The notes under the pieces are model-generated. The model saw nothing but the letters and a program-made list of their open reading frames with translations. It searched no databases and was not told the origin of the DNA. Source: an uncultured Actinomycetes bacterium (GTDB lineage Bacteria; Actinomycetota; Acidimicrobiia; Acidimicrobiales; RAAP-2). Taken from it: a stretch of DNA of 64,000 nt. Positions 1,818-7,056 of the stretch are shown here, one piece after another (the stretch's first letter is position 1; each line of letters begins with the position of its first letter). The stretch is taken from contig CAIQUD010000054.1 in NCBI GenBank assembly GCA_903874965.1, positions 1 to 64,000 on the forward strand. Direction: 5' to 3'. The position numbers and the translations under genes were made by a program.

Positions 1818-2156
1818 TCAGCGCTTGGCTGCAGCCTTCTTTGCAGGAGCCTTCTTTGCAACAGTCTTCTTGGCTGGAGCCTTCTTGGCGACTGCCTTCT
1901 TTGCAGGAGCCTTCTTCGCAACAGCCTTCTTCGCTGGAGCCTTCTTGGCGACTGCCTTCTTCGCTGGAGCCTTCTTGGCGACTGCCTTCTTTGCTGGAGC
2001 CTTCTTCGCAACAGCCTTCTTCGCTGGAGCCTTCTTGGCGACTGCCTTCTTTGCAGGAGCCTTCTTAGCAACAGCCTTCTTCGCTGGAGCCTTCTTGGCG
2101 ACTGCCTTCTTTGCTACTGCCTTCTTAGGAGCAGCCTTCTTTGCGGCGATAGCCAC
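1818..2156 (-). CDS. Lys/Ala/Pro-rich histone H1-like (AlgP/HctB-like) DNA-binding repeat protein
   Basis: '[36 protein letters not shown]...' low-complexity repeats; strong SD AAGGAGGTG just upstream of a GTG start (2156). Confidence 0.8.
1828..2140. repeat. In-frame tandem repeats (about 30 nt, higher-order about 60 nt) encoding ([10 protein letters not shown])n
   Basis: Repeated 'gccttcttcgctggagccttcttggcgact' units on the + strand. Confidence 0.85.
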
Positions 2157-2369
2157 TTGCGCACCTCCTTGGGGTGTCGGTACATCTTGCTGCGCTCACT
2201 AGTGAAATCCGAGCCTGAGCTCGAGGTCCCACTACTGACCACACTTGGTCGGTCGCAACCACGAGATCATCGCTGCGCGTCATCGCGGAGTGAACGACGG
2301 TCATCGGTGTTGCCACCCAGAGCGATGTCGATGAACGGACGCACGACGACGACGTCGACGGGTGACCAA

Positions 2370-2383
2370 CTACGCATGCGTAG
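2370..2383. promoter_or_regulatory. 14-bp perfect palindrome CTACGCATGCGTAG between divergent genes (candidate operator)
   Basis: Perfect dyad in the intergenic region between the histone-like gene (-) and the T4CP gene (+). Confidence 0.35.
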
Positions 2384-2447
2384 CTTGTCCTATCGGTGTC
2401 GATGTTGAACGCCACGCGTACCTCTTCTCGCACTAGGCATTCCATAG

Positions 2448-3890
2448 TTGAGTCGCGTAGAGACCCCGCGTCAAGCATTTACGATGCAACGCGCAAACTT
2501 GTTCGCGAAGAACACCGCGAGGTCGCGCGCGCAGACTCACGAAGTGATCGACCAACAGGCGCTGTCCGATGTGTTGGACGCGTCACGTCGTGGTGGTGGT
2601 ATCTACCTGGGACAGGCACAATCGCGATGGCTCTTCAGCGGAGAGGGACGCTCGGCAATGGTGCTCGGTCCAACAAGGTCAGGCAAGACCACGTCGATCA
2701 TCATCCCCAATCTCCTCGGCCACGCAGGACCAGTGGTATCGACTTCAACGAAATCCGAGCTCGTCTCACTCACCGCTGAAGCACGATCGACAATTGGTAA
2801 CTGCATGGTCTTCGACCCAACGGGCATGGCAGAACTTCCACCCAATGCGGCTCGAATTGGGTGGAGCCCTCTTTCTGGATGCCAGGACTGGGATATCGCC
2901 ATGGCGAATGCCCTGGCTATGACGAAGGCAGCGGGCCAACGCGCAATGACCAACGACCACTGGAGTGAGCGTGCTGGAGCGCTGCTTTCGACCCTCCTCC
3001 ATGCGGCCGCGATTGAAGAAGTTGGCATCCGAACCTTCGTGCAATGGGTCGATCGTGCCCAAGCAGGTGACGCTTCGAGAATTCTCGCAACAAATACCTG
3101 CTCAACACCGCAGGCCGAGGCGCTGCTTGATGGCATCCTGCAGATTCACGACCGAGAACAGTCAGGGATCTGGTCCACGGCTTCAAGCGTGCTCCGCGCG
3201 TATCGAAGTGAACAAGCACTTCAGTCAGCCGAGGGAACATTGTTCGACGCTTCGGCATTCTTAGAAGAGAGCAACTCGCTCTACCTATGCGGGTCATCCG
3301 CTCAACAAGAACTCCTTGCCCCATTGTTCGTTGGACTGCTTTCGTCGTTGAGAGACGCTGCTTACACGGCGTCAAATGCACAACTCGGCTTCGATCCGGT
3401 CTTGTTTGCCCTTGACGAGATCGCAAACATCGCTCCATTCCCCGATCTTCCGAACTTGATCAGTGAGGGAGGCGGCCAGGGGGTACTTACGCTTGCGTGT
3501 CTCCAAGATCTCTCGCAAGCGCGACGCCGCTGGGGACCGGAGGCAGATGGATTCGTCTCGTTGTTTCCCGTGACGATGTTGCTTCCCGGCATTGCAGATC
3601 GAACGACCCTGACACTCGTCCATGATCTCGCTGGTGAGCAGTTGGAGCTCCATGCCTCACGGACCGAACCGAGCCGCGGCTTTCCGCGACGCGCCTCAAC
3701 AACCTTGAGCGGCATGCATCGACCCGTTCAGCCAATGAATGTGATCGCAAAAGGATTGGAGGGTCACGCCCTCATGATCGGACCAACCCGAGACGTCATG
3801 CCGATTGAACTGACACCGAGTCATCGCTCCAAGCCGTGGTCGAAGCTTCGATCTCTTGATCGATCACGCAGCGATCGATCGCGCTTCTGA
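2448..3890 (+). CDS. VirD4/TraG/TraD-type coupling ATPase (T4CP-like), apparently without N-terminal TM segments
   Basis: Walker A 'GPTRSGKTTS', 'STKSELVSLT', Walker B 'VLFALDEIANIAPFPDLPNLISEGGGQGVLTLACLQDLSQARRRWG'; start may instead be ATG 2484. Confidence 0.85.
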   Translation: MSRVETPRQAFTMQRANLFAKNTARSRAQTHEVIDQQALSDVLDASRRGGGIYLGQAQSRWLFSGEGRSAMVLGPTRSGKTTSIIIPNLLGHAGPVVSTSTKSELVSLTAEARSTIGNCMVFDPTGMAELPPNAARIGWSPLSGCQDWDIAMANALAMTKAAGQRAMTNDHWSERAGALLSTLLHAAAIEEVGIRTFVQWVDRAQAGDASRILATNTCSTPQAEALLDGILQIHDREQSGIWSTASSVLRAYRSEQALQSAEGTLFDASAFLEESNSLYLCGSSAQQELLAPLFVGLLSSLRDAAYTASNAQLGFDPVLFALDEIANIAPFPDLPNLISEGGGQGVLTLACLQDLSQARRRWGPEADGFVSLFPVTMLLPGIADRTTLTLVHDLAGEQLELHASRTEPSRGFPRRASTTLSGMHRPVQPMNVIAKGLEGHALMIGPTRDVMPIELTPSHRSKPWSKLRSLDRSRSDRSRF

Positions 3891-5038
3891 TGAGCAGACG
3901 ATGCATGCTCGAGCCCAGCCGCACGATCAATCCACCGCATGAGCCGTTCAGGCTCGAGTGGCCTTGGGCCAAGAGCACCAATCGCAAGCGGACTCGCCAC
4001 GACGGTTCTTGGCGCGATTTCAGCTTCAAAGATTCGGGTTTGCGGTCCAGCGACTGCGTCAATGTTCCGCTCAAGCTTTTGGACGTCTTGTCCAGAACTC
4101 GCCCAAGCCCAAGCTTCAACAACCTTGCGTCGAGTGACTGGGCGGTCATCACCGAGTAGTCGTCGGACGAATTGCTCTTCGTCGAGCCGTCTTGGCACTG
4201 GTTGAAGAGCAATCGAGGCGCTCGTAAAGCGTTCAAGGTCAACGTCGAGACTCGCAGCGCGTCGACCCCACTGGAGCAGGAGTTGTTGTCGGTCAACTCC
4301 CTGCGCCTTCTCAGTTCGTGCTGGGTAACGACTGCCACTCGCACGGTGGCCTCGAACCTCAGCTGCCCTCGTGGAGAAGGCCGCAATTTCCCTCGGCTCT
4401 AGGTCGAGGTCAAGTCCGAGTTGCTTGCAGGATCCCAAGACTCCGGCGTCGTAGATCGCACTTGCTGCGGAAAGATGGGCATGGAGTCCCCGACGGTCAA
4501 GGGCCCCGAATCTCCCTTCCACGCTCCGTCCAAGGTTGGCAAGAACGAGATGGCTGTGGAGATGAGGATCTCCACTCCTCGAGATGCCGTGAGTGAATCT
4601 CACCCCTGCCAACTCGGTAACACGGCTTAACGTCTCGTCGCGTTGATTGGTGGCCAGTCCATGCAGTTCGAAATAGCGAAGCGCTCCTTCAAGCGCTTCA
4701 TGATGCGCTTCCACTACCTGTCTCCCAACCGTTGGTGGCGTAAGCAGTGCGTACAGGCTTACGGCCTTTGGTGGCACTGCGAGGACTTCAAGGATCGGGA
4801 TTTGGCGCTTCTGGTTCGCAAAGGAATGTCCGGCCCGGAGAGGCCGGGCCGAAGCAAGGAGTTCCAAACTTCGTTGGTTCACCGCAATCGCAATATCCCA
4901 ATTGTTTCTGCCGCTGCCAATTGGAGCTCGCTGGGAGATCTCGAGGTGCTCAAGTTCTCGACCGTGGTCTTGTAAGTAGTACTCGACGTCGAAGGTTCGT
5001 CGACCTCGAAGGCGAATCACCCCGTGAAGGTGCGGCAA
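3821..5038 (-). CDS. MobF/TrwC-family conjugative relaxase domain protein (no helicase domain)
   Basis: N-terminal 'VEYYLQD', 'LEVLAVPPKAVSLYALL', metal triad 'THGISRSGDPHLHSHLVLANL'; only about 400 aa. Start may be GTG near 5020. Confidence 0.85.
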   Translation of the reverse strand: MPHLHGVIRLRGRRTFDVEYYLQDHGRELEHLEISQRAPIGSGRNNWDIAIAVNQRSLELLASARPLRAGHSFANQKRQIPILEVLAVPPKAVSLYALLTPPTVGRQVVEAHHEALEGALRYFELHGLATNQRDETLSRVTELAGVRFTHGISRSGDPHLHSHLVLANLGRSVEGRFGALDRRGLHAHLSAASAIYDAGVLGSCKQLGLDLDLEPREIAAFSTRAAEVRGHRASGSRYPARTEKAQGVDRQQLLLQWGRRAASLDVDLERFTSASIALQPVPRRLDEEQFVRRLLGDDRPVTRRKVVEAWAWASSGQDVQKLERNIDAVAGPQTRIFEAEIAPRTVVASPLAIGALGPRPLEPERLMRWIDRAAGLEHASSAHQKRDRSLRDRSRDRSFDHGLER

Positions 5039-5046
5039 CTACTTGC

Positions 5047-7056
5047 CTACGACGTTGCTCGATACCTCTCCAGGATGCGACGTGCTGCTTCACGCTGAAG
5101 CCCGACATATGCCGGAGGAGCCATGACCCTGACGTCAGGACCGCCCATCAGCAACAGTCCCTCGAGCCATGGCATCGATGCAGCGGCGAGTTCGACGATC
5201 AACCCATCACCGATCGCTTGGACACTCTGCGCGGGCACAGAATCCGCAATCCAACGTGCGCCATTTCGAATTCGAAGCACCACTGACTCCGCCTCATCGA
5301 GGAAATCAGCCGTTAGCCCCGGACCGCTCTCAGGAGTGGGGAGGTTGGTCGCCTGCGTCCCCGCATCTTCAATCCAGTCAATCCGGTCAACTCGGAACAA
5401 TCGAAGCGCCTGGGCATCCTCACAGAACGCCTCAACGTAGCCATGGCCGCCGTCAAGAAATACCTGGAGTGGATTGATGACTCGAATAGTCATCTCATCG
5501 CGACTCGCAACGTAATACGCAATCTCAAGTCGGCGATGTTCCGTGACCGCCCGTCGAAGCAACTCCAACTGTTCGCGATGTTCCACATCAACAACAAGGA
5601 CCTCGACGGTTCCGAGGACGGCATCAAGTTTCGCGAGACCAGTTGCGAGTGGAGACGTTGGGTCGTCTTCAATTGCTGCAATCAAATGTGCCGACGCCGA
5701 GAGTGCGAAACCCTCGCGACGGTTGAGTCGCCGTGGTGTTGCCATTGAAGATGGCAACTTTGCAACGACCTTTTCATCGTCCACCATGATGTCAAGCAAG
5801 GCGTCAGGCGTATAGGGAGGTTCACCGCAGCACGCGGCGAGTTCGAGTTCCGCCACCACTTCGGCTTCACTTAGTGAAAATCGCTCTGCCAATTCCGCAA
5901 TCGTCGCTTCACCGACTTGGGCGAGAAAGGTCATCATGGCGAGGAGCCGTCGGAACCGAAGTTCTCCACGAGTCCTTGTGCCTGGCTCAGTCCCTCCAGT
6001 TGCCCACATTTCAAGCATTTGGGGCTCAGCACGTGCCTCCATGACTTGTTCGTCTTCGCCAACCTCAGACATCTCCACGATTGCTTCAAGCCAGGCAATC
6101 AGGTCGTTTCGAAGTGTCGGAGGACTCAGCACTTCGGCTCGATCTCTCAGCGACAGCACCCAATTCCGCGCGAAGAGTTGGTTGCCACATTGGAGGGAGA
6201 CGTCGAGTCTCTCGTCCTCACGACTCACGAGTCGAACGGTTGGTCCAAGTTCCGCCGCAACCCGCCCCGCTGCCGTTTCATCAACAGCAATCACCATGGT
6301 GGGCTCTTCATCACCTGATGACGCTTCGACGACGAGGGTTGAGAATTCAGCCCCTCGGTCGTAATCATCGGGCGGGGCGCCAGAACCTGGTTCATCAACG
6401 ACCGGCGGTCCATCGAATCGATCAACGCGAAAGACGCGCGGGGCCGATCGTTCGAGCGCAAAGCCGGTCAAGTACCACTGTCCGTTGGCGGAACGGAGTG
6501 AAGCCGGACACACGGAACGCTCGGTACCGTCGTAGGAAAAGGTGACGAGTGAAGCGGTCCGAACGGCGTCGAAGAGTTCATCGACGTAGGGAGGCGTCGT
6601 CAACAAAGCAAACGCTGGCACCACGCCAACTGGACCGGCGCCGAACTTCGCCAGCGCACCTTTGCCATATCCAGCCGTATCGCCCGCTCCGGCAACGGCG
6701 ATGGCGAGCGCTCGCTGCTCTGACTCCGTGAGATCAAGATCTGGAAGGTAGAACGCTCGCTCGTTGATCCGGTAGCCAGTCTGAGCCTCTCCGCCAATCT
6801 CGACGGTTTCAATGTCGATGCCTTCTTCGCGAAGCAACTTCTTATCTCGCTCGAATGCTCCCCGATAGGCCGTTTTGTTCGCGCTATAGCCCGGAACCTC
6901 CGCGACGATTTCGGCGAGTGACATCGCCCGTTTTGCTCCAAGAAGCACGAGCACTAAGTCAGTAAGGCGTTCCAACTGGTCGGTTTTGGCCACCGAATCA
7001 GATTTCTCGATCGGTGTCGACGAAGTCGTCACGTCGCCAGGTTCCCGAACGTCCAC
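5047..7056 (-). CDS. pafBC: Fused PafB-PafC-type HTH-WYL transcriptional regulator
   Basis: Two tandem HTH + WYL-like halves ('LSLAEIVAEVPGYSANKTAYRGAFERDKKLLREEGI', 'RLEIAYYVASRDEMTIRVINPLQVFLDGGHGYVEAFC'). Confidence 0.8.
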   Translation of the reverse strand: MDVREPGDVTTSSTPIEKSDSVAKTDQLERLTDLVLVLLGAKRAMSLAEIVAEVPGYSANKTAYRGAFERDKKLLREEGIDIETVEIGGEAQTGYRINERAFYLPDLDLTESEQRALAIAVAGAGDTAGYGKGALAKFGAGPVGVVPAFALLTTPPYVDELFDAVRTASLVTFSYDGTERSVCPASLRSANGQWYLTGFALERSAPRVFRVDRFDGPPVVDEPGSGAPPDDYDRGAEFSTLVVEASSGDEEPTMVIAVDETAAGRVAAELGPTVRLVSREDERLDVSLQCGNQLFARNWVLSLRDRAEVLSPPTLRNDLIAWLEAIVEMSEVGEDEQVMEARAEPQMLEMWATGGTEPGTRTRGELRFRRLLAMMTFLAQVGEATIAELAERFSLSEAEVVAELELAACCGEPPYTPDALLDIMVDDEKVVAKLPSSMATPRRLNRREGFALSASAHLIAAIEDDPTSPLATGLAKLDAVLGTVEVLVVDVEHREQLELLRRAVTEHRRLEIAYYVASRDEMTIRVINPLQVFLDGGHGYVEAFCEDAQALRLFRVDRIDWIEDAGTQATNLPTPESGPGLTADFLDEAESVVLRIRNGARWIADSVPAQSVQAIGDGLIVELAAASMPWLEGLLLMGGPDVRVMAPPAYVGLQREAARRILERYRATS

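Follow-up and report, generated by a model that had tools for sequence, protein, structure and literature searches.

A Convergent Coupling-Type ATPase and Relaxase Pair as Part of a Putative Domesticated Conjugation-Type System in Uncultured Acidimicrobiales

Introduction

Conjugation machinery normally belongs to mobile elements, and the occurrence of a VirD4-type ATPase next to a relaxase among core chromosomal genes raises the question of what such a pair does there. We addressed this question for two genes in a 64,000-nucleotide stretch of DNA (hereafter the window, meaning the whole stretch analysed) whose contig belongs to a MAG of 2.03 Mb (145 contigs, 85% complete). A preliminary description made from the letters of the window had called the pair an orphan with no T4SS, and had offered two explanations: a domesticated DNA-processing or transfer module, or a minimal unit of mobilisation dependent on machinery supplied in trans. 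Our analysis favors, with a probability of about 0.58, a reading in which the pair would form the DNA-processing half of a conjugation-type system that has been domesticated, is encoded on the chromosome and inherited vertically, and exports host ssDNA.

Results

The Gene Pair and Its Setting

1818 to 2156, minus strand: histone H1/HC2-like AAKK-repeat protein (PF07382, E 6e-16)
2448 to 3890, plus strand: T4CP-1, candidate VirD4/TraG-type hexameric ATPase, 480 aa (PF02534, PF12696)
3821 to 3890, no strand: 70-bp 3' overlap of T4CP-1 and the relaxase, from ORF coordinates
3821 to 5038, minus strand: helicase-less MobF/TrwC relaxase, 405 aa (PF08751, E 4e-28)
5047 to 7056, minus strand: PafB-PafC-type fusion, 669 aa, with HTH_PafC, two WYL and WCX domains (Pfam)

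T4CP-1 and the relaxase converge, as the preliminary description had it, and their 3' ends overlap; convergence is constant among relatives, and the length of the gap or overlap varies. The PafBC/WYL gene stops ~9 bp before the relaxase gene begins, and by this position the two genes form a putative operon; the PafBC/WYL gene adjoins the relaxase in every contig of the host's family (f1) that reaches that far. The histone H1/HC2-like gene that directly precedes T4CP-1 is a conserved syntenic neighbor, for which we claim no membership in the machine. Contigs of many relatives stop near it, possibly because its AAKKAPAKK repeats break assemblies. The first 12 kb of the window held no Rfam elements.

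T4CP-1 starts with TTG (alternative ATG at 2484) and matches PF02534 (E 1e-24) and PF12696 (E 7e-16) as well as TraG-D_C and TrwB_AAD_bind. As in other T4CPs, it has a RecA-like motor and a TraG-D_C region, with Walker A (GPTRSGKT, residues 74-81, window ~2667-2690) and Walker B (LFALDE, window ~3399-3419); these and the other motor motifs are essentially invariant across the 44 aligned sequences. No stretch of the protein comes up to the hydropathy threshold for a membrane helix, so that T4CP-1 lacks the N-terminal anchor of the family and is predicted to be a soluble variant. Both features had been noted from the window and stand. The relatives' N-termini include one apparent exception (G013), which is probably an over-long ORF start. 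While phmmer found no match to T4CP-1 in the PDB, a fold search did: the best structural matches of its AlphaFold model (pTM 0.70) were Cagbeta and TrwBdeltaN70.

The relaxase begins with a TTG directly after a stop, with an in-frame GTG a few codons downstream, and is the only TrwC match in the whole genome. It matches TrwC/TraI in a phmmer search of the PDB, and its AlphaFold model (pTM 0.84) has the TrwC relaxase domain as best PDB match in Foldseek (E 1e-13, TM 0.70 on target). MobF relaxases typically have two pairs of catalytic Tyr, and a C-terminal helicase is common in them, if not essential to the relaxase-domain family. In the window protein, the TrwC relaxase domain is joined by the HUH metal triad (H150, H161, H163; all kept in 42 of 42 homologs) and by the N-terminal catalytic Tyr20 (codon at 4979-4981), kept in all 40 orthologs with data at the site, out of 42 aligned. 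Tyr21 is variable and TrwC's second pair of Tyr has no counterpart here, making this a single-Tyr variant; of the YY motif initially described, only the first residue holds, whereas the H..HxH triad of a ~400-aa protein was correctly read. TrwC is also the only domain that Pfam matched, which bears out the described lack of a C-terminal helicase; the C-terminus is a helical region of ~150 aa. In the sister family f22, the relaxase in the same convergent position (L138, 1063 aa) retains an AAA_30 helicase domain, and that of f28 (L152, 1042 aa) can be aligned to it over nearly its whole length. Since relaxases of sister families thus keep a helicase, it is likelier that f1 lost the domain than the reverse.

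The pair is under purifying selection, with dN/dS between the window and the related genome G002 of 0.077 for T4CP-1 and 0.133 for the relaxase (0.08 and 0.13 when rounded; dS is near saturation and the values are rough) and of 0.03-0.07 for neighboring genes. Together with the invariant motifs, these values uphold the earlier argument that intact catalytic motifs speak against decay. The relaxase diverges faster than its neighbors: its identity to G002 is 68%, while T4CP-1 reaches 82% and WYL, MoaC and TldD reach 86-95%. Its catalytic residues nevertheless stay fixed.

Synteny and Inheritance of the Pair

Across 41 f1 genomes from 21 genera, T4CP-1 converged on the relaxase at all 41 loci examined. 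Where contigs extend, the order is an alpha-mannosidase-like gene, cofC, T4CP-1 facing the relaxase, and then WYL/PafBC, with moaC and tldE/tldD next in line in many genera. Family f21 (G068) has the same order and families f22, f48 and f60 have parts of it; the relaxase adjoins the WYL gene in f9, f28 and f33, and in some families, for example f45 (G168), T4CP-1 occupies the same place with no adjoining relaxase. Evolutionary distances among T4CP-1, the relaxase and the core neighbors correlate (Pearson ~0.6-0.9), as do those of the core neighbors among themselves, and the GC content of the pair (0.58) equals the window average and is host-like. Because of this fixed synteny, congruent divergence and host GC, the comparison indicates that the pair is inherited vertically and is not a mobile unit. 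The core-genome context described at the outset is thus confirmed and the domesticated-module explanation gains support, also from the kept motifs; the mobilisation unit borrowing machinery in trans is not supported, given vertical inheritance and the failure of our searches to find close plasmid or phage relatives of the pair.

The same evidence bears on whether the pair is simply an integrated mobile element (ICE/IME) or the decaying remnant of one. In favor of such an origin, all parts descend from conjugation genes, and there are mobile relatives on actinobacterial plasmids; the pair nonetheless keeps the same chromosomal slot in 21 genera, at a location fixed across 41 genomes and not strain-variable as for an ICE/IME, the system occupies two fixed loci (see below), and host GC, purifying selection and the distance of plasmid relatives (at most ~38% identical for T4CP-1 and ~30% for the relaxase) leave this explanation scarcely credible, and we reject it.

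The nearest mobile relatives of T4CP-1 are VirD4-like proteins (34-38% identity) on mycobacterial and rhodococcal plasmids of 14-20 kb (NZ_CP023148.1, NZ_CP118325.1, NZ_CP025550.1). It is possible that such proteins of small plasmids point to the source of the domesticated T4CP-1.

Candidate Cis Elements

2364 to 2395, plus strand: palindrome CTACGCATGCGTAG followed by CTTGTCCTATC, a hairpin and nick-like site; weak oriT candidate
2470 to 2478, plus strand: GTCAAGCAT, core of a conserved element upstream of T4CP-1, recognized by recurrence in relatives

The element GTCAAGCA was present in 30 of 44 T4CP-1 upstream regions (after shuffling, no 8-mer reached more than 14) and in 33 genomes when slight variants were included; a looser box lies ~20 bp upstream. 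This conserved element may be a promoter, an operator or an oriT. GTCAAGCAT was also considered as a regulon signal common to the second locus described below, but the stretch between HK and pilin at that locus did not contain it. The palindrome with TTGTCCTAT at 2364-2395, which we take to resemble the hairpin-nick oriT layout of R388, is identical in G002; a different hairpin stands at the aligned place in G001 and G004, and G009 has a hairpin with TGTCCTAT. As such an R388-like layout occurs in only about five genomes, this segment is a weak oriT candidate.

A T4SS Operon at a Second Conserved Locus

A search for the T4CP revealed a second, membrane-anchored VirD4 in the same genome, on a contig (C108) apart from that of the window (C54):

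Locus 2, contig C108: serS, RR and HK; then pilin, VirB6, PrgI, VirB4 and VirD4; then ROK kinase

The pilin-like protein matches DUF6112 and, weakly, T4SS_pilin; the VirB6-like protein (7 TM) is assigned by TM pattern and position only, the PrgI-like protein has weak profile support (E 0.009 in L101), and VirD4-2 has one N-terminal membrane helix. Within f1 and in several further families, both the operon and the genes flanking it are conserved. On the evidence of these genes, with the VirB6 and PrgI assignments resting on position, TM pattern and weak profiles, locus 2 is predicted to encode a minimal monoderm T4SS, and the genome thus holds the gene set of a monoderm conjugative T4SS: VirB4, VirD4, VirB6/PrgI and a relaxase. 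The absence of a T4SS therefore holds for the window and fails for the genome.

The reading of the pair as an orphan is ruled out by this second conserved locus, with whose pilin/VirB6/PrgI/VirB4/VirD4 operon the pair co-occurs.

A natural deletion was observed in G029 (4 contigs), where the ROK/P450 genes and the HK gene no longer enclose the locus-2 operon; a pilin remnant persists (L126:9300-9584), and the relaxase/T4CP-1 pair is intact.

Co-occurrence Across the Order

Among 298 genomes of the order, T4CP-1 (called at E <= 1e-70) was present in 71, and 69 of these 71 also had VirB4. In the sister family f16 (G063, G116, G277), a divergently oriented relaxase gene (product of 700-890 aa) directly adjoins the T4SS operon (L146, L147, L151), which links relaxase and T4SS physically. 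In G079, a single-contig genome from another family, VirB4 lies at ~209 kb, a relaxase-like gene at ~581 kb and a T4CP-1-like gene, with a weaker match (E 4e-52), at ~610 kb. No strong T4CP-1 match was found outside the order among the 397 genomes of the phylum sampled.

These data help to weigh a role inside the cell, in which the pair, under the PafBC-type regulator and not feeding the T4SS, would have been domesticated to process ssDNA during repair or replication or to act on incoming plasmids. T4CP-1 without a membrane anchor, a relaxase adjoining the PafBC/WYL gene, a lost helicase and the retention of the pair in G029 would all suit such a role; we nevertheless consider it unlikely in view of the joint presence of pair and VirB4 in nearly all positive genomes, the relaxase beside the T4SS operon in f16, and the second VirD4 that the T4SS operon encodes, which fits a DNA substrate.

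ComEC (PF03772) was found in 0 of the 71 T4CP-1-positive genomes vs. 171 of the 227 other genomes of the order. In an rpoB tree (60 genomes, quick search, SH-aLRT support only), 18 of the 21 system-positive genomes grouped into a single clade next to an unresolved fork that holds f16 and f22, and two changes suffice for the distribution of the system. Fisher tests on the T4CP-1/VirB4 and ComEC counts ignore phylogeny and were not taken as independent evidence. The pattern suggests that the system replaced ComEC transformation in the clade, as a correlation and not as proof, because it amounts to essentially one or two evolutionary events.

The lack of ComEC also lends some appeal to a domesticated T4SS that brings in DNA from siblings in the manner of Ced, or exports protein, the relaxase being a substrate or acting on the recipient side. 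Import would close the gap, and Ced is itself a domesticated T4SS for import (PMC9905601). Ced and Ted have no known relaxase, and the conserved nicking active site suggests donor-side processing instead, so that we hold this explanation to be less probable again than a role inside the cell.

Discussion

Proposed Mechanism

In the export reading that we prefer, the relaxase would nick a chromosomal oriT through Tyr20 and the HUH metal site, and soluble T4CP-1 would engage the relaxase-ssDNA complex or pump DNA. The substrate would then be handed to membrane-anchored VirD4-2 and on to the VirB4/VirB6/PrgI/pilin channel, with coupling via T4CP-1 and/or VirD4-2, and host ssDNA would be exported to a neighbor cell or the medium. 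Expression may be tied to ssDNA or DNA damage through the neighboring PafBC-type WYL gene; this is suggested because ssDNA binding to the WYL domains activates PafBC in mycobacteria (PMC11804915), and here by gene position only. We thus infer nicking, oriT, export, the division of labor between the two coupling ATPases and regulation from components read in the sequence. Counting against export are the intact pair of G029 without the T4SS operon, the missing anchor of T4CP-1, and the families with no relaxase beside T4CP-1. More tentatively, and with somewhat less than even confidence, we propose that a clade of ~20 family-level lineages domesticated conjugation as relaxase-driven chromosomal DNA exchange, possibly damage-induced, taking over from lost ComEC transformation.

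Comparison with Known Systems

The closest parallels are domesticated or chromosomal T4SSs. Archaeal Ced/Ted of Sulfolobales and Thermoproteales are, like the system here, chromosomal domesticated T4SSs with VirB4, VirB6 and a VirB2-type pilin, and Ced is induced by DNA damage; however, Ced imports and neither has a known relaxase, whereas the present system is bacterial, with a catalytic MobF relaxase and two VirD4-type ATPases. To the authors of that work, no other organisms were known to possess a domesticated apparatus for conjugative DNA transfer (PMC9905601). The rvh T4SS of Rickettsia likewise forms conserved, scattered chromosomal islets whose phylogeny suggests vertical inheritance, and the scattered arrangement in G079 resembles it, but rvh is a diderm vir-like system considered for effector translocation, and the word relaxase is absent from the portion of that paper's text available to us (PMC2653234). 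The core T4SS of Patescibacteria shares a lineage-wide monoderm FATA-like VirB4/VirD4/PrgI/VirB6/pilin set, but most of its clusters have no relaxase and are thought to be co-opted for other functions (PMC12102498).

Other systems share the DNA-processing side. The gonococcal genetic island combines a relaxase with a chromosomal T4SS and exports chromosomal ssDNA, but is F-like and a single mobile island in a sub-population of a naturally competent species (PMC12857230). TrwC/TraI and TrwB share the relaxase fold, HUH triad and catalytic Tyr, and the T4CP fold (as TrwBdeltaN70); the present proteins differ in having no helicase, a single Tyr, a soluble T4CP and a core chromosomal location. Mycobacterial distributive conjugal transfer (DCT) and Streptomyces TraB also transfer chromosomal DNA in Actinobacteria, but DCT uses ESX/T7SS and TraB is an FtsK-like dsDNA pump, and neither is described with a core relaxase and VirB4 channel (PMC12857230). 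No core relaxase-bearing system of this kind appears in the section on chromosomal DNA transfer of that 2025 T4SS review (PMC12857230), and a search of the open literature on Acidimicrobiia/Acidimicrobiales with relaxase, type IV secretion or T4SS returned nothing relevant, subscription papers lying outside the search; novelty of a core system combining relaxase and T4SS is accordingly provisional.

Implications and Disruption of virB4

Here, genes for DNA processing and for the channel belong to the core chromosome in all parts of a deep clade of uncultured Actinobacteria, and their catalytic residues are under selection. Should the system move host DNA, it would correspond in bacteria to archaeal Ced, with the addition of a relaxase that could give transfer a direction, starting at defined sites of the chromosome. 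The system would then give a concrete answer to how genes are exchanged in lineages without ComEC, and it would follow that relaxase and T4CP matches in surveys of mobility or of the spread of antibiotic resistance can be core chromosome genes and not plasmid markers.

In several genera (L130-L137 of G008, G045, G009 and G046; also G168 and G208), the core virB4 gene of locus 2 is broken in two around codon 290-300, and in L137 a serine recombinase gene (2456-3847, minus strand) abuts the C-terminal half. This suggests virB4 as an attachment site for mobile elements, by which the machine could be switched off.
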